DNA of 64,000 bases from Clostridia bacterium. Its GTDB lineage: Bacteria > Bacillota_A > Clostridia > Oscillospirales > CAG-272. A program made the translations under genes and the position numbers. Positions 819 through 53,988 of the stretch are shown here, piece after piece (within the stretch, counting starts at the first letter, position 1; the number at the start of each line of letters is the position of its first letter). The notes under the pieces were generated by a model. That model was not told where the DNA came from, made no database searches, and saw only the letters and a program-made list of their open reading frames with translations. Location: NCBI GenBank assembly GCA_017445115.1, contig JAFSUU010000138.1, positions 52,270 to 116,269 on the forward strand, given 5' to 3'.

Positions 819-903
819 ATATATTACCTTGTCTTAGCCTTTTTGAAAAATTCCCCGCGTCTTCACGGACGCGGGGACCGTAAATTGTTTGCTTTGCTAA
901 CTA

Positions 904-15722: not shown

Positions 15723-15731
15723 GGTATCGGT

Positions 15732-16208
15732 ATGGAAAAAAGAAAACATAAATTCAATATCATCGACGCGATCGTGGTGCTGCTCATCGTCGCGGCGGTC
15801 GTGTTTGCGGTCGTGAAGATCGTGAAAAACGCGTCCGATAAAACCGCCGACGTTTCGCTCACGTTCGTAATGCAGACCGATATGATACCGGACGAGCTGT
15901 CAGACAACGTCTCCGTCGGGGATCCGATCTATGACGGCGCGACCGGGCGAAAGATCGGCGAGGTGACGGCTTGCGATACGCGTCCCGCTCAGCACACCGG
16001 CTCCGATACAAACGGCACGCCGGTCGTCAGCGACGTTCCCGGATATAAGACGCTCTACGTCACCTGCAGCGCGATCTGCGAGTCGGGAGACGACGGGTAC
16101 ACCGTCGAGGGCGTTCAGATCAGCTCGGGAAGAAGATACGTTCTGATGTTCCCGTCTCTGTATTGCGAAGGAGAGTGCATCAGCATCTCCGTCGGCAGCG
16201 GGAGCTGA
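15732..16208 (+). CDS. DUF4330 family membrane-anchored protein
   Basis: 158 residues with one N-terminal membrane helix (INIIDAIVVLLIV-type, residues 9-31) and an extracytoplasmic beta-rich domain containing the family pattern DNVSVGDPIYDGATGRKIG. The function of DUF4330 is not known. It starts nine bases after the ligase-like gene. A second member of the same family lies on the other side of the TagO-like gene in this operon (17477-17998), so the two may work together in the export or attachment of the polymer. That last point is inference from position. Confidence 0.7.
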   Translation: MEKRKHKFNIIDAIVVLLIVAAVVFAVVKIVKNASDKTADVSLTFVMQTDMIPDELSDNVSVGDPIYDGATGRKIGEVTACDTRPAQHTGSDTNGTPVVSDVPGYKTLYVTCSAICESGDDGYTVEGVQISSGRRYVLMFPSLYCEGECISISVGSGS

Positions 16209-26916: not shown

Positions 26917-27117
26917 ATGGAAAACGAAAAGAAAAATGTACAAGAAGTGCTTACGGACGAACAGACAAATGAAGCCTCCGGCGGATTATTGACAGATCCA
27001 ACCAAGATATCCCGCCCCAGAAAATGCGCAAATCCTAATTGCAATAATATGGTTCTGGGAGATTCTAAGACTCCTTATTGCAGCAAGTGTCAGAGAAGCG
27101 TGAGGATCTTTATCTGA
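26917..27117 (+). CDS. GG-leader zinc-ribbon peptide, orphan copy
   Basis: 66 residues after AAAGGA. The N-terminal leader is acidic and ends in a double glycine (LTDEQTNEASGG, cut expected after residue 23). The core is basic and carries CANPNC...YCSKC, a C-x4-C-x12-C-x2-C spacing. It shares the leader design, the cysteine pattern and the promoter with the seven-gene array at 50810-52627. Double-glycine leaders normally direct peptides to a C39-peptidase ABC exporter. None is nearby. The core resembles a small zinc ribbon more than a bacteriocin. The function is unknown. Confidence 0.75.
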   Translation: MENEKKNVQEVLTDEQTNEASGGLLTDPTKISRPRKCANPNCNNMVLGDSKTPYCSKCQRSVRIFI

Positions 27118-29760: not shown

Positions 29761-30624
29761 TTAATTCCAGCGCCTTTTCTCAACCGACAGCGCGGTGAGG
29801 AAAAGGAAGAGGGCGGTGATGCTTATATAATATATTATAGCCGCTATGTCAAGCCTGCCGTAGAAAAACTCGTTCATACGCTCGAAAATGCTGATCCCGT
29901 TCAGCAGTTTCGCCGCAAGCCCTTCAAGCGCGGTCCTGTTTATCGCGTACGCGGCAACGGAGGCGACAACGCCGGCTCCGAGGACCGCCGCGGTCACAGC
30001 GGCGCTCTTCGAGATCACCCACGAAATGCCGGCGGCAAGACATGAGAGGATCACGAGGAAGAGAAGGGAGAACGACGACGTCGTCGGAAGACTCTCGGAA
30101 AGAGACGGCAGGAAGAACAGCAGGATTATCGCGCCGAGTGAAACTATCGCGGCGATCACCTGGCTGTCGGTCAGCGATGAGATGAAAATACCTATCGCAA
30201 TCAGTGCCGCGCCCGCGAGGAAATACGCGAACAGAGAAGAGTACGCGGTGTTGAGATAGACCTCGCCGAACTTCGACAGTGCGAGCGGGTAAAGCGCGAC
30301 TACCGCCGTCGGGATCGCAAAGACCGCGAGCGCCGAGAGGTATTTCGCGACTACCGTCGACGCGGTGCCGACCGGAAGCGAGTAGAGAAGTTTGTCCGCG
30401 CCGCGGTGACGCTCTTCCGCGAAAGTCCGCATCGTGAGAAGCGGGAGGGCGAGGAGCGAGAGGAACGAAGCGGACGAGATCACGTATTCAAATTCGGAAT
30501 ACGACCTTTCGAGGCAGTACAGCGTCGTGTAGATGCCGTACCACAGAAGCACGAAGGCGATGAAGATGGGGCCTGTCATCGAGCGCATCGAGCTTTTGAA
30601 TTCTTTTCCGAAGATCGCGCTCAT
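29761..30624 (-). CDS. ABC-2 type permease (GldF-like)
   Basis: 287 residues with six hydrophobic segments. The N-terminal MSAIFGKEFKSSMRSMTGPI and the MRTFAEERHRGADKLLYSLP loop are typical of ABC-2/NosY/GldF permeases. The start overlaps the stop of the ATPase gene by four bases (ATGA), so translation is probably coupled. The substrate is unknown. Confidence 0.88.
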   Translation of the reverse strand: MSAIFGKEFKSSMRSMTGPIFIAFVLLWYGIYTTLYCLERSYSEFEYVISSASFLSLLALPLLTMRTFAEERHRGADKLLYSLPVGTASTVVAKYLSALAVFAIPTAVVALYPLALSKFGEVYLNTAYSSLFAYFLAGAALIAIGIFISSLTDSQVIAAIVSLGAIILLFFLPSLSESLPTTSSFSLLFLVILSCLAAGISWVISKSAAVTAAVLGAGVVASVAAYAINRTALEGLAAKLLNGISIFERMNEFFYGRLDIAAIIYYISITALFLFLTALSVEKRRWN

Positions 30625-31760
30625 TTGCCTTTCCCTCCTTCGTCTTCTTTTTCTTCATCGTCTGTTTCAGCGGAGTCAGACGGCGAGTCCTCTTTTTCGT
30701 CCGACTCGCTTTCGTCTTCTCCGGCTTCTTCTTCGCCGAAGAGAGGAGAGTACGACGAGTCCTCCACGGACGTGACGCCGACCGGAATTTCGGCGACTTT
30801 GCCTTCTTTTTCAAGCGCTTCTTTTTCGGCGCGGCGGTTCGCCGCGTCTTCCGTAAGCCTGATGAAGAGTTCCTCAAGGGATTCACCGGAGAGCGACAGC
30901 TCGCGAAGAACGATGCCGCGTTCCGACGCGGCGCGGAAGATATCTTCTCTCGGATCGAAGCCGGTCTCACATTCGAGCACGGCGCGGGAGTATTCTCCGT
31001 CGTCCTCGCACGAGACGATATTCGCGCCTTCGACCGACGAGAGAGCTTCTTCAAGAGCGGACGCGCCGCAATGAGCTTCTACCGTCACCCTGGACGCGGA
31101 ATCTCCTTCGAGTTCTTTCGCGGTGCCGGATGCGACGACTTCGCCGCACGCGATGATTATAATGTAATCACAGACCGCGGTGATCTCCTGAAGGATGTGG
31201 CTCGAAAGGATGACGCCGTGCTCGCGTCCGAGTTCGTTGATAAGACTTCTGATCTCGATGATCTGCTTCGGGTCGAGACCGACCGTCGGCTCGTCGAGAA
31301 TGACGTACTCGGGATCCCCGATCAGCGCCGAGGCGATACCCACGCGCTGGCAGTAGCCTTTTGAGAGATATTTGATGAGACGGTCGCCCACGTCCGTCAC
31401 GCCGCAGAGGGCAGCCACGCGCCTTGCCTCGGCGTCGGCGTCGCCTTTGAATTTCTTTGCTTTCGCCACGAATCTCAAAAATTCGAACGGCGTCATGTCG
31501 GGGTAGAGCGGCGGTATCTCGGGCAGATAGCCGATCTTCCGCTTCGCGTCGGCGGCTTTCTCGTAAATGTCGAAACCGTCGACGGTGACTTTGCCGCCCG
31601 AGCTTTCAAGGCACCCGGTCATGATGTTCATGGTTGTCGATTTTCCCGCGCCGTTCGGGCCGAGAAGCCCGTAAACGCGTCCGCGCTCGATGTTGAACGA
31701 TACGTTCGAGATCGCGTTACGCGAACCGTAGGATTTCGACAGGTCTTTAACTTCTATCAA
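30621..31760 (-). CDS. ABC transporter ATP-binding protein (GldA-like) with acidic tail
   Basis: 379 residues. Walker A GPNGAGKSTTMNIMTG, the signature loop YLSKGYCQRVGIASALIG (LSKGY in place of LSGGQ, as in the GldA/CcmA group), Walker B YVILDEPTVGLDP and the H-loop ILSSHILQEI are all present. Residues about 215-310 form the regulatory C-terminal domain of this group, and the last 60 residues are a low-complexity Glu/Asp/Ser tail unlike most relatives. First gene of the operon. A TATAAT (minus strand) lies near 31797-31802. Confidence 0.92.
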   Translation of the reverse strand: MIEVKDLSKSYGSRNAISNVSFNIERGRVYGLLGPNGAGKSTTMNIMTGCLESSGGKVTVDGFDIYEKAADAKRKIGYLPEIPPLYPDMTPFEFLRFVAKAKKFKGDADAEARRVAALCGVTDVGDRLIKYLSKGYCQRVGIASALIGDPEYVILDEPTVGLDPKQIIEIRSLINELGREHGVILSSHILQEITAVCDYIIIIACGEVVASGTAKELEGDSASRVTVEAHCGASALEEALSSVEGANIVSCEDDGEYSRAVLECETGFDPREDIFRAASERGIVLRELSLSGESLEELFIRLTEDAANRRAEKEALEKEGKVAEIPVGVTSVEDSSYSPLFGEEEAGEDESESDEKEDSPSDSAETDDEEKEDEGGKGK

Positions 31761-33202: not shown

Positions 33203-35092
33203 TCATTTTTCAGCGTATTCAATTATATCCGGAAGTTTTTTGACTATTGCGAAGTCGTAGGAGCGGAAGTCTTCGTTGAAGGCTTTCTCGATCGCCTCGA
33301 GACTGTCCCAATCTGTCAAGCAGGCGTGGACGCGGGAGAACTTGTCCTTGTCGCGCCCGACGTTTTTCTTCAGAGCAGCGAGGTCGGCGTCTGTCGCCGG
33401 AACGTAGCCCTCGGTCAGCATGTACGCGATCCACCTTTCGTGCTCGTTCTTCGCCATGCGGAGCACCTCGGCATCGTCCTTCATCTTTTCTTTATAGAGC
33501 GCGATCAGCTCTTTGTCGTCAACGTTCTTTGAGACTTTTCCGTCATCTTTGTACGCCTGGAGTTTCGAAGGGATGTGGAGTGCTGAAGCTATCGACGAAC
33601 GGCGATTGTACTCACCTGAAACGAATTCGCGCCGCGCCGCTTCAAAATTCAGCGTCTCGCCTTTTTTTATTGACATTTCACTGTACGCCAGATGGACGCC
33701 GAGCGCGAGACGCTCAAGCTCCGTGTTGAAAAGAATATTGTGAGAATAGACGCTGTCGGCGGTGCCGAAAAGATGTATGCTGCGCCTTTTCGCGTAATCC
33801 TCGTTCTTCGTGTAGGGCGTGATCTTGCGCTTCGAGCGGACTCTCGCGAATATCTCGGGAATACCCTCGTCGGTGAACCCCGACTTGCGCCTGAATACGC
33901 GGTAAACGTAGTCGGCGATTGCGAGATTCTGCCCGTCGTCGTTAGTCGCGGCAACGACGTAGGTCGCGTCGGGAACGTACTCGAGAAGCTTTTCGTCAAA
34001 CCCCTCCGAGAGCGCGTCGGCGTCGACGAAGCGTATCCTCTCTTCGCTTGCCAGTCCGGGGCACGCCTTTATGAACTCGCCGCGGCGGCGCGACGCCGCC
34101 TTGTCGAACACGGTGATCTTCAGAGTGTAGCCCTCGATGATACCGGAGCGGTAGACCGATTTCAGCATATCGGTACCGGTCCTGCCGCAGCCGATGATCG
34201 CGGCCGAGATATTCTTGCCGTGGCCTTTGGTGTCGTAGAGCGGGTAGTCGTAGATCAGACGGTCGCAGAAGAACGCCGCCTCGTCGATGCAGCGGAGTTC
34301 CGCGCGGTCTGTTTCTTTATTGAGCTTTTTGTAGATCTCCTCGAGAAGCTCGACGTCCGTTCCGCTCTCGGCGAAGACGTTGACCGTCACCTTGTTTGCC
34401 GTCAGCTTTTCGCACTTCTTCGCGATGCCGGACGCTTGCTCGATGTTGCGGTCGCCGTCGTCCGAAATGAGATAGAACGTGTATTTTTTATATCTTCGGG
34501 CGATCTTCATCGCGGACGCATGTTTGTAGAGCAGTATTCCCCCAAGCGATTTCGCCGACGCAGCGAGGTCGCGGTCTGCGCCCTTCGAATTGCAGAAAAC
34601 TATCGTCTTAACGCCGGATTCGCGCACGCCTTTGGCGAGAGCGAGCGAGTTCTCGTTTACCTCGGAGAAGACCGCGCACTCGCGCGAGCGGCGGAAGATA
34701 TATCTCATCATATCTCCCTTGTCGCCGAAGAACGAGATCAGAAGACCGGAGGCGAGGATAGGTGAGGTGATGAAGACTATGTAGCTTATCAGAACGTATA
34801 TGAATTTTAGCGCCGCCGGCAGGGAAGCGCTCTCCGGCTGATACAGGTCCTGCCCCCCGCTGATCGATTTCAGACCGTAGAAGAGCGACGACGCGACAGA
34901 GAAGAGCGTGGGGTAGGAAACGACCTTTCCGTCCTTGACCCAGACCGTCGGAAGTACCGTCACGAAAGAATACAGAAATATTCCGACGAGCAGACAGCCT
35001 ATCCATTTCGATGCGCTGTACCTGTTCTTGAATGCGAAAAATATCGCGACGCCGAGTATCACAAGACCCGCGATAAAGCAGAATAGTGCCAT
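33203..35092 (-). CDS. membrane protein with two TrkA-N (Rossmann) domains and a C-terminal RyR domain
   Basis: 629 residues. There are three membrane helices near 1-20, 30-50 and 92-118, with a pore-loop-like stretch (SVASSLFYGLKSISGG) between the second and third. Residues about 130-290 and 295-420 look like two NAD-binding Rossmann units, the second with IIGCGRTGTDMLKSVYRSG. Residues about 545-610 match the RyR domain: AKNEHERWIAYMLTEGYVPA and ACLTDWDSLEAIEKAF. The layout recalls Castor/Pollux-type ion channels. It follows the TIR-MORN gene by 18 bases and is surely co-transcribed. An ion channel or ligand sensor linked to TIR signalling is possible, but that is inference. Confidence 0.75.
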   Translation of the reverse strand: MALFCFIAGLVILGVAIFFAFKNRYSASKWIGCLLVGIFLYSFVTVLPTVWVKDGKVVSYPTLFSVASSLFYGLKSISGGQDLYQPESASLPAALKFIYVLISYIVFITSPILASGLLISFFGDKGDMMRYIFRRSRECAVFSEVNENSLALAKGVRESGVKTIVFCNSKGADRDLAASAKSLGGILLYKHASAMKIARRYKKYTFYLISDDGDRNIEQASGIAKKCEKLTANKVTVNVFAESGTDVELLEEIYKKLNKETDRAELRCIDEAAFFCDRLIYDYPLYDTKGHGKNISAAIIGCGRTGTDMLKSVYRSGIIEGYTLKITVFDKAASRRRGEFIKACPGLASEERIRFVDADALSEGFDEKLLEYVPDATYVVAATNDDGQNLAIADYVYRVFRRKSGFTDEGIPEIFARVRSKRKITPYTKNEDYAKRRSIHLFGTADSVYSHNILFNTELERLALGVHLAYSEMSIKKGETLNFEAARREFVSGEYNRRSSIASALHIPSKLQAYKDDGKVSKNVDDKELIALYKEKMKDDAEVLRMAKNEHERWIAYMLTEGYVPATDADLAALKKNVGRDKDKFSRVHACLTDWDSLEAIEKAFNEDFRSYDFAIVKKLPDIIEYAEK

Positions 35093-35110: not shown

Positions 35111-38100
35111 TCATTCTTCGACTTTTATCATTTTTCCGTTTTTCCACACGCACTCGTGCTTTGATCCGTCGGACAGTGTCATAAAACCCCGTCCGTCCGG
35201 CGTGAAATTTTTGAAACTGCCCTCGTAACTGCCGCCGGTGGCGAGCGTCTCTGTGCCGCAGACGATCTTTCCGTCCTTGAATTCACCCTCGAAGACGTCG
35301 CCTTTCGCGTTCGTGTATTTTCCTTTTCCGTCCGGCTCATATTTTTTGAACTCGCCTTCGTAGACGCTGCCGGATGTGTAAAAGAGCTTTCCGCGGATAA
35401 TGTCGCCATCTTTGAATTCACCTTCAAAGACGTTACCGTCGACCGTGGTATAGCGGCCGCTTCCGTTCTCCGTGAAGTTGCTGATCTCGCCTTCATAGAC
35501 GTCGCCGTTTTCGTAGGTGCATTTTGCTTGTCCGACCATTTCGATCCCGTCGAATTCTCCTTCATAGACGTCACCGGCAAGGCTCATCTTGCCCTTTCCT
35601 TTGGGAGATAGATTAACGTGCTCTCCCTCGTAGACGAACTGTTGGTTTGATATAACTCCGTATCCTTTGTACACTCCGTCGATGACGTCGCCTTCGTAGT
35701 GGTAACCTTGCGCGTCGATCAACGCCGTTCCTTTGCGAAGAATGTCGTTTTCCCAGGTGCCGCGACTTACGTTGCCTGCCGGATAGGTTATGACACCTTC
35801 TCCGCATTTATTTCCATCTTTCCATTCACCGTCGTATACGGAGCCGTCTTTACATTTATAAACGCCGTGACCGTTGTAGTTGTCGCTGTCCCATTCGCCT
35901 TCGTATACGTCGCCGTCTTTCCACTCCAGCTTGCCGGTGCCGCATTTCTTGCCTTCTTTCCATTCGCCGTCGTAGAATTTTCTTTTGTCGTCATCATTAT
36001 ATGTATAGACACCGTGACCTTCGTACTGTCCGTCCTTCAGCTCGCCGAAGTACGAATTGCCGTTCAGTTCACCGTTGGTGTAATAGTAGATCTGACCGGA
36101 GCCCGTCCACCATTTGTCGTCTTTGAAAATACCGCTCCACGTCGCGCCGTCGGGGTAAGTAAAGATCCCTTCTCCGCTTTGTATGTCGTCGCGCCACTCA
36201 CCGTCGTATACGGCGCCGTAATAATAGTGCAGTACGCCGTGTCCGTTGTATTTTCCATCCGAGAATTCGCCTTCATATACCGATCCGCTTGTAAACGTAT
36301 ATTTTCCGAAGCCGCACCGGACGCCGTCTTTGAATCCGCCCTCATATACGTTTCCGCTTGCATATCTGTCGACGCCGCGGCCGTTTCTAACGTCGTCCTT
36401 CCATTCGCCCTCGTATACTTCACCGTCTTTCCACTCAATCTTGCCGACGCCGCATTTCTTGCCTTCTTTCCACTCTCCGTCGTAGAATTTTTTGCTGTCG
36501 CTCTCGGCGTAGATATATTTTCCGCGGCCGTCGTACTTTCCGTCCTTCAGCTCGCCGAAGTACGAATTGCCGTTTGGCTTGCCGTCGGTGTAGTAATATA
36601 TCTGACCGGAGCCGGTCCATTTTTTGTCGTCCTTAAAAATGCCGCTCCACTTCGTGCCGTCGGCGTAAGTATAGACTCCTTCGCCGTCAAACAATCCGTC
36701 TTTCCATTCGCCGTCATATACGTCGCCGGATGCATAACGAGCTGTTCCGTGGCCGTTATATTTGTCGCCATGAACTTCGCCTTCGTAAACGAAACCTTTG
36801 GAAGAGCGGTAAACAGCCTTTCCTTCGCATACGTTGTCTTTGTAACCGCCTTCATATACAGTTCCGTCCGAGTATGTATAAACTCCCTCTCCGTTGAATT
36901 TATCGTTTTCCCATCCGCCTTCGTAGGAGTCGCCGCTTTTGAACTCCATTCTGCCGACGCCGCATTTCTTTCCCTCTCTCCACTCGCCGTCGTAGAATTT
37001 TCTGCTGTCGCTCTCGGCATAGATATATTTTCCGCGGCCGTCGAGCATTCCGTCTTTCATCTCGCCGAAGTACGATTTTCCGTTCGGCTTGCCGTCGGTG
37101 TAATAGTAGATCTGGCCGGAACCCGTCCATTTTTTATCGTCCTTAAAAATACCGCTCCATTTCGTGCCGTCCGGGTTCGTATAAGTGCCCTGTCCTTCGA
37201 ACTTGTCCGCTTTCCATTCCCCGTCGTAGAGGGCTCCGCTTAAATGTTTGAACACGCCGCGGCCGCACCTCTCGTCGTCCTTCCAGCCGCCCTCGTAAAC
37301 CGAGCCGTTGCCGTAGTCAAGTTTGCCGTTTCCGGACCGTTTGTCTTCTTCAAATCCGCCTTCGTATATTGCGCCGTTTTTGTTTTTCAACGTGCCGTAT
37401 CCGTGCTTTTTGTTCTCTTTCCATTCGCCGTCGTAATAATCGTATTCATTGCTCTTTGGCCAGGTGAAGATGCCGCGGCCGTTGTATTTCCATTTTACGA
37501 CTTCGCCTTCATATACGCCGCCGTCGGTGAATTCGTAGCGCCCTTTTCCGTTCGGGACGCCGTCGCTCCATTCTCCGGTGTAGACTGTGCGCCCTTCGTT
37601 GTACGTTAATTTTCCTTTTCCGCTTCTTTTGCCGTCCTTCCATTCGCCCTCGTAAACGGAGCCGTCGCGGTAATATCCTTTGCCCTCGCCGCACCGCTTG
37701 TCGTCGCGCCACTCGCCTTCGTAGACGAGGTTACCTCCGACGGTGAGGGTACCTTTTCCGCAGCGCAGGTCGTCTTGCCATTCGCCTTCATAGACGTCGC
37801 CGTTCGAGTATTCAAAAACCCCTTTTCCGTCCTTCTTTCCGTTTTTCAGAACGCCGTGAAAGACGCCGTCCGCCATGACGAAGACCTCTTCGTTCACGAC
37901 ATTGAATACGTCCTTTATCGCGCCGACAAGGTCTTTTGCGTGTGTTCCTGACGAGAACGGAAGATAGGTGCTCTCGTCGCTGAACGTGGTCATGAGAAGC
38001 ATTATCCAGCGTGAGTTGATGCCGCTCTCGCGCCTCTCTTCGTCCGTCGTGGAGAAGAGTATACTCGACGGGGAGCCGCCGGTCAGGTTAACGCTGAAAT

Positions 38101-38479
38101 AGGGCACGCCTTCCGAGACCTTGTCGCATGTGACCTCGTCGCATCCGGTCGTCAGCGCGATCTCCTTCAGTATGTTGCGGCTGAGGAACAGGTTTTTGCT
38201 GAGATAGAATATGACTCCGCAGCAGTGCGCGTCGGTGATCCTCTCCTTGACCTCGCGGTCCCAGTCCTTTCCCGCGGGAAGCCCCTTGTCGTACCAGAAT
38301 CTTACGCCCGCGTCGTACATGTCCGCAAGGTCCGCGTAGACCTGCTTGTAGTCCTCGTGGGAATAGCTGATGAAGATATAGTTCTGGTCGTCCTTGCGGA
38401 GGGGTACCGGCACTTTTCCGCATCCTTCTATACTGTCTGATGAGAGAAGCGAGCTTTTATACGTTTCCTTGTCAAACAT
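35111..38479 (-). CDS. TIR domain fused to about 39 MORN repeats
   Basis: 1,122 residues. Residues about 30-190 form a TIR domain: YIFISYSHEDYKQVYADLAD, FWYDKGLPAGKDWDREV, GVIFYLSKNLFLS and NILKEI, whose Glu sits where bacterial TIR NADases have their catalytic Glu. From about residue 205 to the end there are about 39 MORN-like units (YEGEWKDGKxxGxGxxxxxDG). Three long super-repeats of about 165 residues are each marked by KWSGIFKDDKKWTGSGQIYY. No membrane segment or signal peptide. MORN repeats usually bind membranes or proteins. A TIR that hydrolyses or cyclises NAD would fit a defence or signalling role. First gene of a two-gene operon with the TrkA/RyR protein. Confidence 0.85.
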   Translation of the reverse strand: MFDKETYKSSLLSSDSIEGCGKVPVPLRKDDQNYIFISYSHEDYKQVYADLADMYDAGVRFWYDKGLPAGKDWDREVKERITDAHCCGVIFYLSKNLFLSRNILKEIALTTGCDEVTCDKVSEGVPYFSVNLTGGSPSSILFSTTDEERRESGINSRWIMLLMTTFSDESTYLPFSSGTHAKDLVGAIKDVFNVVNEEVFVMADGVFHGVLKNGKKDGKGVFEYSNGDVYEGEWQDDLRCGKGTLTVGGNLVYEGEWRDDKRCGEGKGYYRDGSVYEGEWKDGKRSGKGKLTYNEGRTVYTGEWSDGVPNGKGRYEFTDGGVYEGEVVKWKYNGRGIFTWPKSNEYDYYDGEWKENKKHGYGTLKNKNGAIYEGGFEEDKRSGNGKLDYGNGSVYEGGWKDDERCGRGVFKHLSGALYDGEWKADKFEGQGTYTNPDGTKWSGIFKDDKKWTGSGQIYYYTDGKPNGKSYFGEMKDGMLDGRGKYIYAESDSRKFYDGEWREGKKCGVGRMEFKSGDSYEGGWENDKFNGEGVYTYSDGTVYEGGYKDNVCEGKAVYRSSKGFVYEGEVHGDKYNGHGTARYASGDVYDGEWKDGLFDGEGVYTYADGTKWSGIFKDDKKWTGSGQIYYYTDGKPNGNSYFGELKDGKYDGRGKYIYAESDSKKFYDGEWKEGKKCGVGKIEWKDGEVYEGEWKDDVRNGRGVDRYASGNVYEGGFKDGVRCGFGKYTFTSGSVYEGEFSDGKYNGHGVLHYYYGAVYDGEWRDDIQSGEGIFTYPDGATWSGIFKDDKWWTGSGQIYYYTNGELNGNSYFGELKDGQYEGHGVYTYNDDDKRKFYDGEWKEGKKCGTGKLEWKDGDVYEGEWDSDNYNGHGVYKCKDGSVYDGEWKDGNKCGEGVITYPAGNVSRGTWENDILRKGTALIDAQGYHYEGDVIDGVYKGYGVISNQQFVYEGEHVNLSPKGKGKMSLAGDVYEGEFDGIEMVGQAKCTYENGDVYEGEISNFTENGSGRYTTVDGNVFEGEFKDGDIIRGKLFYTSGSVYEGEFKKYEPDGKGKYTNAKGDVFEGEFKDGKIVCGTETLATGGSYEGSFKNFTPDGRGFMTLSDGSKHECVWKNGKMIKVEE

Positions 38480-47167: not shown

Positions 47168-48550
47168 ATGTTTGACGAAGAAATGTATGACGACCTCTAC
47201 GAGGAGATCACAAAACTGATTGAAGACAAGAACTACGCGAGGATCAGGGACCTCATCGCCGATATGGAGCCTGCGGATATCGCCGCTCTGTTCGAGGAGT
47301 TCCCGCCCGAGCAGTTCACCCTCCTTTTCCGCCTTCTCCCGAAGCTCTCCGCCGCGGAGGTCTTCGTCGAGATGGATTCCGACATGCAGATGCAGCTCGT
47401 CGAAGGTTTCTCCGACGCCGAGCTCGGTTACGTCGTTGACAAGCTGTTCATGGACGATACCGTCGACATCATCGAGGAGATGCCCGCGAATATTGTTAAG
47501 CGTATCCTCGCGCAGGCGACTCCGGCAAAACGTCAGATGATCAACCAGCTCCTCCACTATCCGAAGGACAGCGCGGGATCCATCATGACGACGGAGTTCG
47601 TGGAGCTGCGCCCCGAGATGAAAGTCTCCGAGGCGTTCGGCAGGATAAGGGACACCGGACTTAAAAAGGAGACTATCTACACCTGCTACGTGACGGACAA
47701 GGAGCGACACCTTATCGGAGTCACCACCGTCAAGGATATGATCATCGCGGGAGACGATGCGGTGATCGAAGATATCATGGAGACCGCTATCGTCTCCGTG
47801 AACACGCTCGACGACAAGGAAGACGTTGCGCGTTCAATGGACAAATACGACTTCCTCGCGATCCCGGTCACGGACAAAGAGAACCGTCTCGTCGGTATCG
47901 TAACGTTCGACGACGCTATGGACGTCATCAGCGAAGAGGACACCGAGGATATCGAAAAAATGGCGGCTATTTTGCCGTCCGACAAGCCGTATCTGAAGAC
48001 CTCGCCCTTCGAGGTTTGGAAGAAGAGGATTCCGTGGCTTCTTCTGCTCATGGTCTCCGCGACCTTCACAGGGCAGATAATAGCGAGCTTCGAGGAAAAA
48101 CTCGCCGCGCTCTCGGTGCTGATCGCCTATATCCCGATGCTTATGGACACCGGCGGTAACTCCGGAAGCCAGGCGTCCGTCACGGTCATCCGTGGACTGT
48201 CGCTGGGCGACATCTCGTTCTCCGACTTTTTCCGCGTTGTCTGGAGCGAGATACGCGTTTCAGTGCTCTGCGGCGCGACTCTCGCCGCGGCAAACTTCGT
48301 CAAGCTGATAGTCGTCGACCGGCTGATCTTCGGCAACGAGGACCTGACTTACCCGGTCATCGCGGTCATCTGTATCACGCTTGTGGTGACGGTATTCATC
48401 GCGAAGCTCGTCGGCTGTACGCTGCCGATGCTCGCGGAAAAGATCGGCTTCGACCCCGCCGTAATGGCGAGCCCGTTCATCACGACGATCGTCGACGCGC
48501 TGTCGCTGCTGATCTACTTCCAGTTTACGAAATTGATTTTACAGATTTAG
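47168..48550 (+). CDS. mgtE: magnesium transporter MgtE
   Basis: 460 residues. An N-terminal helical domain (PADIAALFEEFPPEQFTLLF), two CBS domains (about residues 135-260), a plug helix and five C-terminal membrane helices with the family signature IPMLMDTGGNSGSQASVTVI. MgtE is a homodimeric Mg2+ channel gated by Mg2+ on its cytosolic domains. CGGAGG precedes the ATG. No M-box riboswitch fits into the 40 bases between rpe and mgtE. Confidence 0.96.
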   Translation: MFDEEMYDDLYEEITKLIEDKNYARIRDLIADMEPADIAALFEEFPPEQFTLLFRLLPKLSAAEVFVEMDSDMQMQLVEGFSDAELGYVVDKLFMDDTVDIIEEMPANIVKRILAQATPAKRQMINQLLHYPKDSAGSIMTTEFVELRPEMKVSEAFGRIRDTGLKKETIYTCYVTDKERHLIGVTTVKDMIIAGDDAVIEDIMETAIVSVNTLDDKEDVARSMDKYDFLAIPVTDKENRLVGIVTFDDAMDVISEEDTEDIEKMAAILPSDKPYLKTSPFEVWKKRIPWLLLLMVSATFTGQIIASFEEKLAALSVLIAYIPMLMDTGGNSGSQASVTVIRGLSLGDISFSDFFRVVWSEIRVSVLCGATLAAANFVKLIVVDRLIFGNEDLTYPVIAVICITLVVTVFIAKLVGCTLPMLAEKIGFDPAVMASPFITTIVDALSLLIYFQFTKLILQI

Positions 48551-48590
48551 CGCGCAGCCAATTCATGATGCGCAGCATCAATTCATTTTT
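48549..48590. repeat. short palindrome array with AATTCAT linker
   Basis: GCGCGCAGCC-AATTCAT-GATGC-gca-GCATC-AATTCAT-TTTTTC. Read on the minus strand the linker is ATGAATT, close to the RTGAWRT linkers of the other arrays. Confidence 0.6.
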
Positions 48591-48629
48591 TCAAAAGTTT
48601 CCCTGCATAAATCTTTATAAAAATTCTTC

Positions 48630-48658
48630 TTGACAAATCGGGAAACGGGGTGTATAAT
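48630..48658 (+). promoter_or_regulatory. sigma-A promoter of the ammonium transporter
   Basis: TTGACA (48630-48635), a 17-base spacer, TATAAT (48653-48658). It leaves a transcribed leader of about 140 bases. Confidence 0.85.
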
Positions 48659-48665
48659 GCTGACA

Positions 48666-48807
48666 AAGCAAGGCAAGGGCGTCTTTGAGTGAGAACTCGA
48701 AGGCGCCTTCACTTTTATTTCGCTTGGAAAATATCAACAGGCAAAGGCGTCTACATGTTTCGGCATGCGGCGCCTTTTTCAGTAAAACCCAAAGGAGAGA
48801 ACTTGAT
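48666..48807 (+). promoter_or_regulatory. two-hairpin leader of the ammonium transporter
   Basis: Hairpin 1 (48675-48709) pairs AAGGGCGTCTTTGAGT with ACTCGAAGGCGCCTT. Hairpin 2 (48743-48779) pairs AAAGGCGTCTACATG with CATGCGGCGCCTTT and is followed by U-rich sequence (TTTTTC), as in a terminator. The arms of the two hairpins have nearly the same sequence (AAGGCGTC / GGCGCCTT), so they could exchange partners. The ribosome binding site AAAGGAG follows 12 bases later. This suggests attenuation, perhaps with nitrogen state. I cannot assign a known riboswitch class. Confidence 0.55.
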
Positions 48808-50565
48808 ATGTTAATCGAAGAGGTCACAAAACTTGTAAACGAGACGGTAACGAAAGAGGCGTTCGGGATATGGTTTCTGATCGGAGCGGCTCTTGTCTTT
48901 CTGATGCAGGCGGGCTTTGCGATGGTTGAGACCGGCTTTACGAGGGCGAAGAACGCGGGGAACATCATAATGAAGAATCTGATGGATTTCTGCATCGGTA
49001 CTGTTGTATTCGTGCTGCTCGGCTTCTCGCTGATGATGGCGGAGGACTACGTTCTCGGTTTCATCGGCGTTCCGAACTTGAAGATACTCACCGACTTCGG
49101 CGGATTTCTTGAAAGCGGAAACGCCCCGTCGTTCGTATTCAACCTGGTGTTCTGCGCGACCGCGGCTACTATCGTTTCCGGCTCGATGGCGGAGCGCACC
49201 AAATTCCTTTCATACTGTATATATTCCGGCGTTATCTCGCTGTTCGTATATCCGATCGAAGCGGGCTGGGTGTGGAACTCCAGCGGTTGGCTGGCGGGAC
49301 TCGGCTTCCACGATTTTGCGGGATCCGCCGCTATCCACTCGGTCGGAGGTCTGACCGCTCTGATCGGCGCGATAATTGTCGGGCCGCGTCTCGGCAAGTA
49401 CGTTAAAGACAGACAGGGCAATGTCAAGAAGGTAAACGCGATCCCCGGCCACGCGATAACGCTCGGCGCGCTCGGCTGTTTCATTCTGTGGTTCGGATGG
49501 TATGGCTTCAACGGCGCCGCCGCCTGGGACGGAAACTCGCTCGCGTCGATCTTCGTCACGACGACTATCGCACCCGCGGTCGCTACCTGCACGACGCTGA
49601 TATTCACGTGGGTCAAGAACGGAAAGCCCGACGTATCTATGTGCCTGAACGCTTCGCTTGCGGGGCTTGTTGGTATCACGGCGGGGTGCGACGCGCTTGA
49701 CGCACTCGGGTCGGCTGTGGTCGGCGCGGTATCCGGCATACTTGTCGTTGTGATGGTCGAATTTCTCGATCTGAAACTTCACATTGACGACCCGGTGGGC
49801 GCTGTTGCGGTTCACTTTGCAAACGGCGTATGGGGCACGATAGCGGTCGGTTTGCTTGCAAATCCCGAAGCTCCGGCGGGACTTTCCGGTCTGTTCTACA
49901 CCGGCAGCTTCAGGCTTCTCGGGGTGCAGTCGCTCGGAATCACAGCGATCCTCGCCTGGACCGGAGTGCTGATGACGCTGACGTTCATTATAATCAAAAA
50001 GACGGTCGGGCTCCGCGTTTCGAGAGAAGAGGAAGTACGCGGGCTTGACAGTACGGAGCACGGGCTTCCGAGCGCGTACGCGGACTTTGCGCCCGCGGTG
50101 GAGGGGCTTCACTACGAGCCGTTCTCCGAGGCATCTGCGGTCTCCGGCGACATTCCGCCTGCAGAGGCGATACCCGTGAAGAAGGTGCCCGCTTTCGACG
50201 GCACGGCGCCCAAGTTCACAAAGGTTGAGATAGTTTGCCGCGAGGCGCGCTTCGAGGCGTTAAAGACGGCGATGATGGACATTGGAATCACCGGCATGAC
50301 GGTGTCGCATGTGCTTGGCTGCGGTGTTCAGAAAGGCAAGCCGGAGTATTACCGCGGCGTTCAGATCGAGGCGACGCTGTTGCCCAAGATCCAGGTCGAC
50401 ATAGTCGTCAGCAAGGTGCCGGTGCGCTCTGTCATTGAGACGGCGAAGGCGGTGCTTTACACCGGGCACATCGGCGACGGAAAGATCTTCGTTTACGACG
50501 TTGAAAACGTGGTAAAGGTCCGCACCGGTGAAGAAGGCTACGACGCGCTCCAGGACGTTGAATAG
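48808..50565 (+). CDS. ammonium transporter fused to a PII (GlnK-like) domain
   Basis: 585 residues from the ATG at 48808 (AAAGGAG upstream). An in-frame extension to 48685 would run through the leader hairpins and is rejected. Residues 1-415 are an Amt channel with eleven helices: AALVFLMQAGFAMVETGFTR, FDFAGSAAIHSVGG-like HDFAGSAAIHSVGGLTALI, WFGWYGFNGAA. A linker of about 55 residues leads to a complete PII domain (about 470-585): KVEIVCREARFEALKTAM, GVQKGKPEYYRGVQIEATLL with the T-loop Tyr, and TGHIGDGKIFVYDVENVVKV, the ATP/2-oxoglutarate B-loop. PII normally plugs Amt from the cytosol as a separate protein. Here the control subunit is tethered. Confidence 0.93.
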   Translation: MLIEEVTKLVNETVTKEAFGIWFLIGAALVFLMQAGFAMVETGFTRAKNAGNIIMKNLMDFCIGTVVFVLLGFSLMMAEDYVLGFIGVPNLKILTDFGGFLESGNAPSFVFNLVFCATAATIVSGSMAERTKFLSYCIYSGVISLFVYPIEAGWVWNSSGWLAGLGFHDFAGSAAIHSVGGLTALIGAIIVGPRLGKYVKDRQGNVKKVNAIPGHAITLGALGCFILWFGWYGFNGAAAWDGNSLASIFVTTTIAPAVATCTTLIFTWVKNGKPDVSMCLNASLAGLVGITAGCDALDALGSAVVGAVSGILVVVMVEFLDLKLHIDDPVGAVAVHFANGVWGTIAVGLLANPEAPAGLSGLFYTGSFRLLGVQSLGITAILAWTGVLMTLTFIIIKKTVGLRVSREEEVRGLDSTEHGLPSAYADFAPAVEGLHYEPFSEASAVSGDIPPAEAIPVKKVPAFDGTAPKFTKVEIVCREARFEALKTAMMDIGITGMTVSHVLGCGVQKGKPEYYRGVQIEATLLPKIQVDIVVSKVPVRSVIETAKAVLYTGHIGDGKIFVYDVENVVKVRTGEEGYDALQDVE

Positions 50566-50583
50566 AATGATGGATATGTGCAA

Positions 50584-50613
50584 GGGGAAACTTTTTGAAA
50601 AAAGTTTCCCCCG
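50584..50613. terminator. GCGGGGA-type palindrome, copy g, terminator of the amt gene
   Basis: GGGGAAACTTTTT-ga-AAAAAGTTTCCCC(CGC), 19 bases after the stop. It is the only full copy without the TTTTTGAAA flank. Confidence 0.7.
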
Positions 50614-50740
50614 CATTTTCCCTGCATTATTCATATAAAATATTATAATTGATTATAAAAAATCGTTTATTACTCTTGCATTTATAATAATTATATGAGA
50701 TACTTAAAATATGGGAAGTGAAAAAATTTTTGAAAAATCA

Positions 50741-50769
50741 CTGCCATGTGGAAAATTTTTGCGTATAAA
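50741..50769 (+). promoter_or_regulatory. conserved promoter of the GG-leader peptide array, locus 2
   Basis: CTGCCA (50741-50746), a 17-base spacer, TATAAA (50764-50769). TTTTTGAA lies upstream and ACA..TGAAA.CAAA downstream, as at 26838-26866. It is the only such element before the seven peptide genes, so they probably form one transcript. Confidence 0.7.
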
Positions 50770-50809
50770 CAGATGAAAACAAAAAAACAGACCGAAAGGA
50801 GCGAACGGA

Positions 50810-50992
50810 ATGGCAGACGAAAAAAAGAAAGAATACGGTGAACTTGAGGACTGCGATCTTGATAAAGTCGCGGGAGGAAGATTCACCTACTTGCCGGGTT
50901 CGCCAAAGCCGGGCAAAAACCATAGCCCTTCGATACATCAGCAGGGTCAAGATGAAAAGGGCATCTACCGCCCTCAGGACGCGAACGAATAA
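50810..50992 (+). CDS. GG-leader peptide 1 of the array, cysteine-free core
   Basis: 60 residues after AAAGGAG. The leader (EYGELEDCDLDKVAGG) has the same acidic build and GG end as its neighbours. The core FTYLPGSPKPGKNHSPSI... is Pro/His/Gln-rich and has no cysteine, unlike the six other members. It is the first gene after the shared promoter. A different kind of cargo on the same leader, or a decayed member, are both possible. Confidence 0.65.
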   Translation: MADEKKKEYGELEDCDLDKVAGGRFTYLPGSPKPGKNHSPSIHQQGQDEKGIYRPQDANE

Positions 50993-51022
50993 AATTTGCA
51001 CATAAGAAAGGGGAAAATGAAA

Positions 51023-51223
51023 ATGGAAAACGAAAACAAGAACAGGAAAGAATGCGGTGACATCGGCGACGGCGAACTGAATAAGGTTGCGGGCGGATTC
51101 TTTTGTTATCCGACAGGAGATTCAAAAACGTGCATAACGAAAGGATGCGGCAAACCGGCTGTCAGAGACGGTCTCTGCACCGAATGTTATAACAAGAAAA
51201 GGCGCCCGTCGGTGAGATTATAA
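51023..51223 (+). CDS. GG-leader zinc-ribbon peptide 2
   Basis: 66 residues from the second of two close ATGs (AAAGGGG is nine bases before it, and the MENE start is shared by the family). The leader ends GDGELNKVAGG. The core has CITKGCGKPAVRDGLCTEC and a basic end (YNKKRRPSVRL), C-x4-C-x8-C-x2-C. The core resembles the small zinc knuckle that stands before HNH nuclease domains in phage proteins (C-x3-GC-x(n)-C-x2-C/H), but there is no nuclease here. Confidence 0.7.
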   Translation: MENENKNRKECGDIGDGELNKVAGGFFCYPTGDSKTCITKGCGKPAVRDGLCTECYNKKRRPSVRL

Positions 51224-51249
51224 GCGGATAGATATGAAAGGAACGAAAA

Positions 51250-51450
51250 ATGGAAAACGAAAAAGAGATAAAAAAAGAAGCTCTCACGGATGAAGAGCTA
51301 AGCGAGGTCGCGGGCGGAGCCGCCAGCCTTTTCAGGCAGACGAGATTGAGACGCTGCGCGACAAAAGGATGCAAAGGCTACGTTCCTCCGAACTCGACCG
51401 GTATTTACTGCACGAACTGCGCCGCCGGCAAAACGGTCGCAAGATTATAA
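51250..51450 (+). CDS. GG-leader zinc-ribbon peptide 3
   Basis: 66 residues after AAAGGAACG. Leader EALTDEELSEVAGG. Core AASLFRQTRLRRCATKGCKG...YCTNCAAGKTVARL, C-x4-C-x12-C-x2-C, strongly basic before the first Cys. Nearly the same as peptide 5 (51714), from which it differs at a few positions only. The two lie in a 223-base direct duplication. Confidence 0.72.
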   Translation: MENEKEIKKEALTDEELSEVAGGAASLFRQTRLRRCATKGCKGYVPPNSTGIYCTNCAAGKTVARL

Positions 51451-51490
51451 AAATTTTTACGAGGAGAAAATGAAAATGGAAAACGAAAAA
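51268..51490 (+). repeat. direct repeat in the peptide array, copy 1
   Basis: Matches 51726-51948 at a constant offset of 458 bases with about ten substitutions. It covers most of peptide gene 3, the following gap (AAAATTTTTACGAGGAG) and the first codons of the next peptide. Confidence 0.85.
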
Positions 51491-51667
51491 AAGAAAGAAT
51501 ACGGCGAGCTGAACGACGAAGAACTCATTGACGTCACGGGAGGGGCAGACGCTTCCTTCAATATCGTAAGTGCCGAAGAGTGCGTGGTACCGGGATGTCA
51601 CAGACCTGCCACGAAGGGCGAATATTGCGAGTCCTGCTATAATAAAAGATGGAGTAGGTATAAATAA
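51476..51667 (+). CDS. GG-leader zinc-ribbon peptide 4
   Basis: 63 residues from the second ATG, nine bases after AGGAG. Leader EYGELNDEELIDVTGG. Core ADASFNIVSAEECVVPGCHRPA...YCESCYNKRWSRYK, C-x4-C-x9-C-x2-C. The first Ala after the GG and the basic C-terminus match other members. Confidence 0.7.
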   Translation: MENEKKKEYGELNDEELIDVTGGADASFNIVSAEECVVPGCHRPATKGEYCESCYNKRWSRYK

Positions 51668-51713
51668 AAACAGACAATAAATATAATGAAAACATCGTAA
51701 GGAATGATATAAA

Positions 51714-51908
51714 ATGGCTGAAGAAATAAAAAAAGAAGCTCTCACGGATGAAGAGCTAAGCGAGGTCGCGGGCGGAGCTGCCAGCCTTTTCAGGCAGACG
51801 AAATTGAGACGCTGCGCGACAAAAGGATGCAAAGGCTACGTTTCTCCGAACTCGACCGGTATTTTCTGCGCGAACTGCGCCGCCGGCAAAACGGTCGCAA
51901 GATTATAA
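51714..51908 (+). CDS. GG-leader zinc-ribbon peptide 5
   Basis: 64 residues. Near copy of peptide 3 with a shortened N-terminus (MAEEIKKE). Leader EALTDEELSEVAGG, core RRCATKGCKGYV...FCANCAAGKTVARL. Two of the few differences lie next to the second cysteine pair (Y to F and T to A). The ribosome binding site is weak (AAGGAATG). Confidence 0.7.
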   Translation: MAEEIKKEALTDEELSEVAGGAASLFRQTKLRRCATKGCKGYVSPNSTGIFCANCAAGKTVARL

Positions 51909-51948
51909 AAATTTTTACGAGGAGAAAATGAAAATGGAAAACGAAAAA
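51726..51948 (+). repeat. direct repeat in the peptide array, copy 2
   Basis: Second copy of 51268-51490. It includes the same intergenic stretch and the start of the following peptide gene, so the duplicated unit spans gene junctions. Confidence 0.85.
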
Positions 51949-52116
51949 GTTATCAAAGAAAAGGTCGAAAAAGAAGAGATAACCGACGAGGCGGCGAACG
52001 ACGCATCCGGCGGCTACTTCGCAAGGAGAAAAGTCTGCGCGACGAAGGGATGTAACAATTATGTCATCGGCTTTGCTGCATATTGCCCGCTCTGCGAAAG
52101 AAAAATAAAAAAATAA
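51934..52116 (+). CDS. GG-leader zinc-ribbon peptide 6
   Basis: 60 residues from the second ATG, nine bases after AGGAG. The leader ends EEITDEAANDASGG, closest to the orphan copy at 26917 (TNEASGG). Core YFARRKVCATKGCNNYVIGF...YCPLCERKIKK, C-x4-C-x10-C-x2-C. Confidence 0.7.
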   Translation: MENEKVIKEKVEKEEITDEAANDASGGYFARRKVCATKGCNNYVIGFAAYCPLCERKIKK

Positions 52117-52179
52117 AAACAGGAAGCGCGGCGCGATCCGCGCTATTTGTCGGTCAAAAAACGAAGGGAAACGAAAACG

Positions 52180-52383
52180 ATGGAAAACGAAAACAGAAAA
52201 GAAAACGCCGAACTGAACGACAGTGAGCTGAGCGAGGTCGCGGGCGGAGCCGTCGGCATTATACCACGGGCGAGAGAAATGAGACGCTGCGCGAATAAGG
52301 GATGCAACGGATTAGTTCCGTCGAACTCAACGGGTATTTACTGCAAGAACTGCGCCGCCGGCAAACCGATCGCAAGATTATAA
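52180..52383 (+). CDS. GG-leader zinc-ribbon peptide 7
   Basis: 67 residues from the ATG at 52180. A TTG farther upstream is ignored because MENE is the family start and AAGGGAAACG precedes it. Leader NAELNDSELSEVAGG. Core AVGIIPRAREMRRCANKGCN...YCKNCAAGKPIARL, C-x4-C-x12-C-x2-C, close to peptides 3 and 5 at the C-terminus. Confidence 0.72.
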   Translation: MENENRKENAELNDSELSEVAGGAVGIIPRAREMRRCANKGCNGLVPSNSTGIYCKNCAAGKPIARL

Positions 52384-52408
52384 GGATGACTTGAAAGGTA
52401 AAATGAAA

Positions 52409-52627
52409 ATGGAAAACGGACAAGACATCAAAACAGAAGAACTTACCGACGAGATGGCGGACAAAGCGGCGGGCGGTATGCTTAAGATCTCTACGGAGGA
52501 TTATATGTGGAGGCCCAAAATCTGCGCGACACCGGGATGTGGTATGCCGATCTTGAAAGATGAAGAATATTGCGATGAGTGCAAAGAAATGATGGGGTAT
52601 AACATAGAATTGTTTCCAAACCCTTGA
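52409..52627 (+). CDS. GG-leader zinc-ribbon peptide 8 (last of the array)
   Basis: 72 residues from the ATG at 52409 (AAAGG ten bases before). Leader EELTDEMADKAAGG. Core MLKISTEDYMWRPKICATPGCG...YCDECKEMMGYNIELFPNP, C-x4-C-x11-C-x2-C. The C-terminal tail is longer and acidic or neutral, unlike the basic tails of the others. A GCGGGGA-type palindrome (52689-52722) follows. Confidence 0.68.
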   Translation: MENGQDIKTEELTDEMADKAAGGMLKISTEDYMWRPKICATPGCGMPILKDEEYCDECKEMMGYNIELFPNP

Positions 52628-52671
52628 AGAAGAATGATATGCAAGGCCGGCGCCTTGCAAGAAAGGGTCGG

Positions 52672-52722
52672 AAGTTTTTGAAAAGGGTGCGGGGAGAACT
52701 TTTTGTAAAAAGTTCTCCCCGC
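52672..52722. terminator. GCGGGGA-type palindrome, copy h, convergent terminator
   Basis: AAGTTTTTGAAAAGGGT then GCGGGGAGAACTTTTT-gt-AAAAAGTTCTCCCCGC, between the last peptide gene and the converging ychF. A smaller palindrome GCAAGGC-cggc-GCCTTGC lies at 52641-52658. Confidence 0.75.
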
Positions 52723-52745
52723 ATATTTATTCTATTTCTATTATA

Positions 52746-53840
52746 TCACACATTAAACCTGAACAGCGTCACGTCGCCGTCGCGCATGACGTAGTCCTTG
52801 CCCTCGGAGCGGAGCAGACCGCGCTCTTTCACGACCGCCATCGAGCCGCACGCCATAAGATCGTCGTAAGCGACTATCTCGGCGCGAATGAACCCGCGCT
52901 CGAAATCGGAGTGGATCTTGCCCGCCGCCTGAGGCGCCTTCGTGCCTTTCTTGATCGTCCACGCGCGGACCTCTTTGGGACCTGCGGTGAGGAACGAGAT
53001 CAGACCGAGCAGAGAATAGCTCTTCTTTATCAGCCTCGACAGACCGGAGTCCGTAATGCCGAGGTCGGCGAGGAACATCGCCTTTTCCTCGGGATCGAGC
53101 TCCGCGATCTCGGCTTCGATCGCCGCGGAGACCGGAATGACTTCGGCACCTTCGAGAGCGGCGCGATCAGCAACTGCTTTGTAGAACTCGTTGTCGGGAG
53201 AGACAGCAGCGGCTTCGGCTTCAGCGACGTTCGCCGCATAGATGACCGGCTTTGCGGTTATAAGATTCACGTCGGAGATCACCTCGAGCTCGTCCGCGTC
53301 AAGACCGAGCGAGCGCACCGTTTTGCCCTCGTTCAAACCCGCGTAGATCTTCTCGAGTACGTCGAGCTCGCGCTGAAGGGTCTTATCGCCTTTAAGCAGT
53401 TTCTTCGTCTTGTCGATGCGGCGCTCGAGCATCTCCATATCGGAATAGATCAGCTCCATATCGATAGTCTCAAGGTCGCGCACCGGGTCGACCGAGCCGT
53501 CGACGTGTACGACGTCGTCGTCGAGAAAGCACCTGACGACGTGGACGACCGCGTCGCAGTCGCGGATGTTCGAGAGGAACTTGTTGCCGAGACCTTCTCC
53601 GTTCGACGCGCCCTTGACGAGACCTGCGATGTCGACGAATTCTACTGTCGCTGGGGTGTAGAGCTCGGGCGAGTACATTTCGGCGAGGCGGTCAAGCCTC
53701 TCGTCCGGAACGGGGACGATCCCCACGTTCGGATCTATAGTACAGAACGGGTAGTTGGCGGATTCAGCGCCGCCTCCCGTCAGGGCGTTGAAGAGCGTGC
53801 TTTTTCCCACGTTGGGAAGACCGATTATTCCAAGCTTCAT
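52746..53840 (-). CDS. ychF: redox-regulated ribosome-binding ATPase YchF
   Basis: 364 residues from the ATG at 53840 ([20 protein letters not shown]). An upstream in-frame extension lacks a ribosome binding site. Obg-family P-loop GLPNVGKST, the switch region [20 protein letters not shown], the coiled-coil region in the middle, and the C-terminal TGS-like domain with [24 protein letters not shown] motif (here [18 protein letters not shown]). YchF prefers ATP and binds ribosomes. AAAGG is nine bases upstream. It is a single gene. Confidence 0.96.
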
Positions 53841-53988
53841 ATTATTCTGCCTTTCGGTTGATTCCGGAATTATACAATTATTCAATACTTTTATCATTAT
53901 ACTACTTTATTTGCGCGATATCAAGTGCCAATTTGCACCCTTATCATAAAAATTTCTTAAAAAAATTAAAAAAATGTTAATAAATCTA

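Follow-up and report, generated by a model that had tools for sequence, protein, structure and literature searches.

A 64,000-nucleotide stretch of the genome of a Clostridia bacterium from gut or rumen (assembly GCA_017445115.1, contig JAFSUU010000138.1, positions 52,270 to 116,269 of the forward strand), hereafter the window, carries a row of eight consecutive genes for short peptides with double-glycine (GG) leaders. The array occupies positions 50810-52627 between amtB and ychF; all its genes lie on the plus strand and encode 60-74 amino acids (aa), with intergenic gaps of 19-63 bases (Table 1). Together with a lone gene at 26917, the window holds nine GG-leader genes, eight of which (seven in the array and the lone one) encode a four-cysteine (C4) core of the pattern C-x4-C-x(9-12)-C-x2-C. 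A preliminary description of this DNA had placed the array and the further gene correctly and had seen the four-Cys core, but it counted seven genes in a row, six of them with C4 cores, where there are eight and seven, respectively (gene 1 being Cys-less), and it gave the middle spacing as x(8-12), a range that proved narrower on measurement. A mechanical scan found the C4 pattern in 8 of the 486 short open reading frames (ORFs; 25-129 aa) of the window, all eight with a GG leader, and shuffling each C4 core with its composition kept (20,000 trials each) retained the pattern in 0.2-1.1% of trials. Purifying selection on the array genes is weakly shown by the dN/dS values of three paralogue pairs (0.77, 0.62 and 0.61).

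Table 1. Features of the window (positions are counted from the first base of the window).
Feature	Position	Strand	Description
GG-leader gene 1	50810..50992	+	60 aa; leader ...ELEDCDLDKVAGG; 37-aa core without Cys
GG-leader gene 2	51017..51223	+	68 aa; core C-x4-C-x9-C-x2-C plus one extra Cys
GG-leader gene 3	51250..51450	+	66 aa; core C-x4-C-x12-C-x2-C; protein modelled
GG-leader gene 4	51470..51667	+	65 aa; core C-x4-C-x9-C-x2-C
GG-leader gene 5	51714..51908	+	64 aa; 91% identical to gene 3 (near-duplicate)
GG-leader gene 6	51928..52116	+	62 aa; core C-x4-C-x10-C-x2-C
GG-leader gene 7	52180..52383	+	67 aa; core C-x4-C-x12-C-x2-C
GG-leader gene 8	52403..52627	+	74 aa; core C-x4-C-x10-C-x2-C
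Lone GG-leader gene	26917..27117	+	66 aa; core C-x4-C-x12-C-x2-C
Segment amtB + array	48551..52745		missing from the corresponding site of two congeneric genomes (tblastn synteny with L230 (G140) and L231 (G028))
mgtE	47168..48550	+	left neighbour of the extra segment; recognised from sequence
amtB	48805..50565	+	ammonium transporter with C-terminal extension; directly upstream of array; recognised from sequence; mechanical ORF begins at 48685 (TTG)
Inverted repeat resembling a terminator hairpin	50584..50612		between amtB and array; pattern match
Terminator-like 17-pair hairpin	52687..52724	+	3' of array
ychF	52746..53897	-	right neighbour of the segment; recognised from sequence; likely start 53840
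MsbA-like ABC exporter/permease without C39 domain	3-833	-	cut by left window edge

Every window leader ends in GG and has L or I at position -12. Five of the nine combine L-12, L-7 and V-4, one has I-12/L-7/V-4, and the remaining three carry A or T at -7 together with A at -4; the leader of gene 1 matches profile A3 (E 3e-6). In alignment A5, which comprises 54 members including the window's eight C4 proteins, L or I occupies -12 in 53, D occupies -10 in 52, and A or V occupies -4 in 54. Loss of the GG site among homologues, named in the preliminary description as an outcome that would speak against peptide export, was not seen, GG being present in all 54 aligned members, a figure partly built in because the search profile itself contained GG. 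According to the available text of the respective reports, LahT requires a hydrophobic -4, L-7 and L-12 and accepts many cores (PMC6363468), and the pneumococcal ComAB and BlpAB read positions -15, -12, -7 and -4, RtgAB using another motif (PMC7018657). The best PDB sequence match of A5 is CtA, a substrate of PCAT1, reached through the leader with an E-value of 0.032 that is not significant alone. Family scans of the nine window proteins returned only sub-threshold matches: none matches TIGR03798 or TIGR03793 at E<=1, and class II bacteriocin models stay below their curated cut-offs (best NCBIfam model 19.6 bits against 40; PF10439 15.1 against 27.1). A nearly identical leader (MENEN...LTDEELKEVAGG or close to it) precedes different Cys-bearing cores in the metagenome peptides P0014-P0020, of which P0018 is named a bacteriocin-like protein in one source.

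Two Cys/His pairs are present in eight of the nine window genes, and 51 of the 54 aligned members, one with His in the last place, fit C-x(2-6)-C-x(5-26)-C-x2-[CH], a conservation that is partly circular since the profile carried the Cys. Spacings vary among members (x3/x17 in 15, x4/x12 in 12, x2/x12 in seven, plus others); four Cys are found in 42 of the 54 cores and five in 11, and peptides without Cys but with the same leader type occur in the same arrays (L109, L111, L112). At E<=0.01, 23 Pfam families match A5 members, 18 of which bear zinc- or metal-binding names (best 5e-7); the remainder are three DUFs, Auto_anti-p27 and DmmA-like_C. For the window cores, no Pfam family exceeds its gathering score. 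One metagenome member, P0045, carries precomputed assignments to PF02591, PF26408 and PF13248. Structure models have core pLDDT values of 74-77 and 79-85, that is, moderate confidence, and show a helix where the last Cys pair lies. Among the listed fold matches, all of them weak, are fingers of the A20, LIM and PHD types; with the A20-type finger (3vuy) and the LIM finger (7d2t, 1qli) the modelled cores share the order of the Cys together with knuckle, hairpin and helix. The A20 finger has the spacing C-x4-C-x11-C-x2-C, and CxxCG knuckles and aromatic-C-x-x-C ends are typical of zinc sites. As modelled, the cores thus appear to resemble zinc fingers, mostly weakly. The possibly metal-binding nature of the four-Cys core, suggested in the preliminary description, gains from the scan, the shuffles and the zinc-family matches: the core is non-random and looks metal-binding. 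The proposed likeness to the zinc knuckle of phage HNH nucleases found no such backing, given the fingers that the fold comparisons do list and two scans of viral contigs without a relative (tblastn with A6 over 356 stretches and with A2 over 153); no HNH nuclease stands in the Foldseek lists, which leaves one possible. A ubiquitin-binding function, considered because of the A20 likeness, is likewise unsupported.

A profile of the eight C4 proteins recovered 20 database proteins and the wider profile A4 recovered 44; close relatives of the array peptides occur in other metagenome contigs, and a tblastn search of 102 genome-contig stretches with A2 gave no relative. Among 395 genomes of one family sample, A5 matched 22, of which six were judged unrelated by eye (G021, G150, G190, G219, G308, G342) and 16 were kept, including G395, where the core is cut by the contig start, and the weakly scoring G101 and G111; A3 matched nine genomes, from which G043 and G391 were dropped. 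Two unusual ORFs were noted among the relatives. In L184 (G101:C46; 1498-2322, minus strand) a truncated SpoIIE phosphatase domain continues, within a single ORF, into a GG leader and a two-CxxC core, through gene fusion, recombination or assembly error. The other, a 207-aa ORF in L105 (G276:C245; 288-908, minus strand), seemingly combines two leaders with several Cys pairs; the first leader is Nif11-like but at 21 bits scores under the cut-off, and the second, a GG leader, comes after a spacer.

In relatives, such peptides lie beside exporters. Locus L112 (G141) presents, in this order, a C39 exporter of the NHLM_ABC1 family (950 bits; cut-off 853), ABC2 (717 bits; cut-off 709), an extracytoplasmic function (ECF) sigma factor and three GG peptides, one of which has a two-pair core and a longer leader that is Nif11-like by eye without matching TIGR03798, the other two being Cys-less; next come STAS, an LPG_synthase_C protein and MATE-HATPase, with SpoIIE-HATPase farther along. 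Portions of this arrangement are also seen in L105, L107, L108, L109, L111 and L149, with exporter or ABC pieces recognised by profile in L108, L109, L111 and L149, and sigma or partner-switch genes recognised through Pfam matches in L107 and L111 and visually in L105, L108, L109 and L149. So that the peptides would not steer the choice, 25 loci were picked around NHLM_ABC1 instead: 20 from the 21 genomes over the cut-off, a second locus from one of those genomes, and four near-cut-off or fragment loci. Here, two Cys pairs are found in 12 of 22 GG peptides defined by a leader rule, and in 4 of the 125 remaining short ORFs that have a ribosome site (Fisher p 7e-9); of these four, one is a GG peptide that the rule missed. 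The count excludes ORFs that lack a good start or overlap an ORF of >230 aa. GG peptides occur in only 11 of the 25 loci and the 12 two-pair peptides are confined to six; in ten of the latter the leader is 49-65 residues long, in the other two 27. A reverse transcriptase and an AbiEii-type protein were also observed near NHLM exporters, in L147 (4794-5987) and L165 (11005-11901, minus strand).

Across the sample, NHLM_ABC1 exceeds its cut-off in 21 of 395 genomes, namely in 5 of the 16 peptide-carrying genomes against 16 of the 379 others (p 8e-4). A lenient count gives 8/16 against 18/379 (p 1e-6); it adds G145, one bit under the cut-off, the fragments in G293, G271 and G074, and G084, where the exporter C-terminus lies at the contig end, other genomes not having been re-inspected in the same way. 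Kinship inflates this co-occurrence, since five of the 16 peptide-carrying genomes belong to one genus of 12 genomes. The C39 co-occurrence sought in the preliminary description is thus present in the strict NHLM_ABC1 count and incomplete, a C39 domain of any kind being found in 7 of the 16 genomes. Its assignment of the GG leader to a C39 exporter is nevertheless supported, by the leader positions as well as by the linkage to NHLM exporters in relatives. That no exporter or modifying gene adjoins the array itself was also borne out as far as the searches reached: the neighbours are mgtE, amtB and ychF, and an NHLM C39 exporter profile built from six sequences reached only a generic ABC ATPase (30624-31760) and the edge-cut permease in the window. 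A radical SAM profile of three relatives' proteins had no window match at E 1e-8, and the CxxxCxxC motif was not found in script-called window ORFs of >=200 aa. No immunity gene was recognised beside the array, no search having been aimed at such genes.

The array appears to be an addition to its site. In two congeneric genomes, G140 and G028, the flanks are collinear and mgtE directly adjoins ychF in convergent orientation, the two matches lying about 175 and 134 bases apart, respectively, so that amtB and the array are extra in the window. By isoleucyl-tRNA synthetase, the nearest of the 395 genomes are G140 and G183 (91% over 801 and 621 aa), followed by G095 and G028 (80%); these four make up the whole sampled genus of G140, and the peptide profile has no match in any of them. 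At the array site itself G095 is uninformative, its contig ending inside ychF, and G183 has no ychF match. GC3 is 0.45-0.60 in the nine small genes against 0.68-0.79 in six other genes compared, amtB having 0.72. The array therefore looks acquired, either together with amtB or beside it, in the mgtE-ychF interval. A search of 80 amtB loci revealed no array, and in 18 genomes from which some of these loci come the single match was spurious; it should be noted that amtB is a poor marker of kinship, isoleucyl-tRNA synthetase being the better one. Because of the short gaps, the hairpin after gene 8 and the similar inverted repeat before gene 1, the array is likely transcribed as one unit, which may be separate from the amtB transcript. 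A perfect promoter-like TTGACA-17 bases-TATAAT sequence is found upstream of amtB (48630-48658, plus strand). In another genome, L110 (G138:C79; 4396-15845) contains a cluster of AmtB, type III glutamine synthetase and glutamate synthase, and a GG gene with a two-pair core (15642-15845) directly follows GlnA and an ANTAR regulator; this cluster and the position of the window array behind amtB could reflect a tie to nitrogen supply or a coincidence, both being possible. Elsewhere in the window, we noted a 2266-aa protein with a C-terminal type I dockerin (4211-11008, plus strand), as in cellulosome-bearing bacteria, and a TIR domain protein with MORN repeats (35114-38479, minus strand) adjoining a 629-aa protein (33206-35092, minus strand) without Pfam or NCBIfam match at E 1e-5.

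We consider it about an even chance that the array is an acquired set of exported zinc-finger-like cargo peptides, cleaved after GG by an exporter encoded elsewhere. The acidic leader of 21-29 residues, with its hydrophobic -12, -7 and -4 positions and GG end, would be read by the C39 peptidase of an ABC exporter, NHLM_ABC1-like in relatives, which would cut after GG during export. The 33-49-residue core, which contains two Cys pairs in every array gene but gene 1, would bind one zinc-like metal and fold as a minimal treble-clef or zinc-ribbon module. Because the leaders are alike and the cores divergent, the array could encode a small repertoire of secreted zinc-finger-like peptides that all use one exporter, and in an anoxic gut free thiols could hold a metal outside the cell. 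Known exported GG peptides serve as antibiotics and signals, and their Cys are frequently modified or joined in disulfides. The likeliest use here would be action on neighbouring microbes, bacteriocin-like or signalling. The array itself, its leader pattern and paired Cys, the exporter linkage in relatives and the lack of the array at the corresponding site of two congeners are observed; export in this organism, the metal, the lack of further modification and the function are inferred. Weighing against export of unmodified zinc peptides are the lack of an exporter in the window, the 9 of 16 peptide-carrying genomes in which no C39 domain was found, and the presence of a radical SAM gene in the loci of 11 of the 12 two-pair GG peptides.

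The last point concerns the main rival, whose case is strongest for the long-leader branch: the peptides may instead be ribosomally synthesized and post-translationally modified peptides of the sactipeptide or ranthipeptide type, their Cys thioether-linked by a radical SAM/SPASM enzyme before export, which we regard as unlikely but in need of serious weighing. One radical SAM family is present in 7 of the 25 transporter-chosen loci (L144, L150, L151, L152, L153, L158, L162) and in five of the six that hold two-Cys-pair GG peptides (P 0.002). Its proteins adjoin the cargo in L150, L151 and L162, where they were confirmed as Radical_SAM plus SPASM, and three tested members match no NCBIfam model above cut-off; the family is a candidate maturase for two-Cys-pair Nif11-leader peptides. 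Tandem four-Cys precursors also fit the sactipeptide type, ruminococcin C (RumC) of gut Clostridia having four Cys and several copies, as does the window family. However, the radical SAM profile matches neither the window nor the nine peptide-chosen loci L105-L113 of short-leader relatives, several of which are contigs of 4-8 kb, and the enzyme may lie elsewhere in the genome. Ruminococcin C sactipeptides require a radical SAM enzyme, and their Cys spacing differs from that of the window cores. Moreover, the cores match zinc ribbons, the Cys spacing varies, and His can take the place of Cys (in P0056; a G272 peptide has C-x2-C...H-x3-C-H). The thioether alternative raised in the preliminary description thus draws support from the transporter-chosen loci and none from L105-L113 or the window; a LanM search found nothing in the 16 relatives, a zero from which nothing follows as control genomes were also silent. 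The finding of the radical SAM gene in L144 as well led us to lower zinc-finger export from somewhat probable to evenly poised and to raise thioether modification from quite improbable to its present standing. The zinc reading stays ahead for the short-leader branch, which includes the window peptides.

Disulfides, cytosolic residence and decay are all less likely than thioether chemistry. Unmodified class II bacteriocins with the same leader, forming two disulfides outside the cell, would account for the sub-threshold leader matches and for the mostly four- and five-Cys cores; this is improbable, as no disulfide-rich family appears by name among the best 60 of 70 PDB matches or the 23 Pfam families, and the CxxCG knuckles and aromatic-C-x-x-C ends point to zinc sites. 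Slightly less probable still is that the products are zinc microproteins of the cytosol, their GG segment having no role in export: the exporter gaps noted above would fit, as would the small two-CPxCG zinc proteins of Haloferax described in the available text of PMC11241148, but the leader keeps the exporter-contact positions and its GG, some cores behind this type of leader in the same arrays are Cys-less, and relatives lie in NHLM export loci. That the array is a decaying, unselected leftover of a mobile cassette is very improbable: its extra position, low GC3, dN/dS values and lack of matches in four congeners agree with decay, whereas its eight ORFs are intact, the four Cys are kept in all seven C4 copies, and close relatives exist in other metagenome contigs.

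Zinc-finger export may extend well beyond this array. Gut and rumen Clostridia may export mix-and-match, unmodified zinc-finger miniproteins (A20-, LIM- and zinc-ribbon-like) through C39/NHLM exporters, under ECF sigma factors and, in several loci, a SpoIIE-STAS-HATPase partner switch; these would be a new cargo class with zinc-thiolate folds outside the cell, which the anoxic habitat would permit. We hold this wider proposal tentatively, at well below an even chance. If it is true, bacteria secrete metal-folded minidomains, and new questions arise as to how the metal is kept off during export, which partners are bound outside and whether such peptides are restricted to anoxic habitats. If a radical SAM enzyme acts instead, the peptides would constitute a large and new family of thioether peptides whose Cys pairs resemble those of zinc fingers. 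Either way, a rule would follow for interpreting many unnamed short ORFs in gut metagenomes.

Among known systems, we recognised no paper on zinc-finger cargo in the open-licence PMC literature, covered mainly by titles and abstract openings; the rumen survey of the Hungate1000 collection refers to GG leaders, and the terms 'zinc', 'NHLP' and 'Nif11' do not occur in its main text (PMC13289728). The Haloferax C(P)XCG zinc microproteins are likewise <70 aa with two Cys pairs; they are archaeal, and the accessible part of their description mentions no GG leader (PMC11241148). Class II bacteriocins (PF10439, TIGR03949, NF046113) share a leader likeness to ELTDEELSEVAGG, all matches being below cut-off and the cores unrelated. 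LahT/LahA and the prochlorosins likewise combine many precursors, one leader type, diverse cores and a -4/-7/-12 code, with one tolerant C39 peptidase serving diverse cores in the LahT system; their leaders are of the Nif11 type and their cores lanthipeptide or other, according to the text available (PMC6363468), whereas the window cores have two Cys pairs with zinc-finger-like spacing and no adjoining exporter. The NHLM/NHLP system (TIGR03793, TIGR03794, TIGR03796-TIGR03798), in which NHLM exporters go with NHLP and Nif11 leaders in mix-and-match combination with cores, was described by Haft and others (PMC2887384, seen in part). Relatives of the window peptides adjoin TIGR03796 and TIGR03797 exporters, and the GG cleavage site, conserved leader and hypervariable core are common to both; unlike NHLM/NHLP precursors, the window peptides have short leaders matching neither TIGR03798 nor TIGR03793, and the NHLM cores undergo, in the portion available of the same source, thiazole, oxazole or lanthionine chemistry and are not zinc fingers. 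The window array thus apparently follows the same export logic as these known systems with a new class of cargo.

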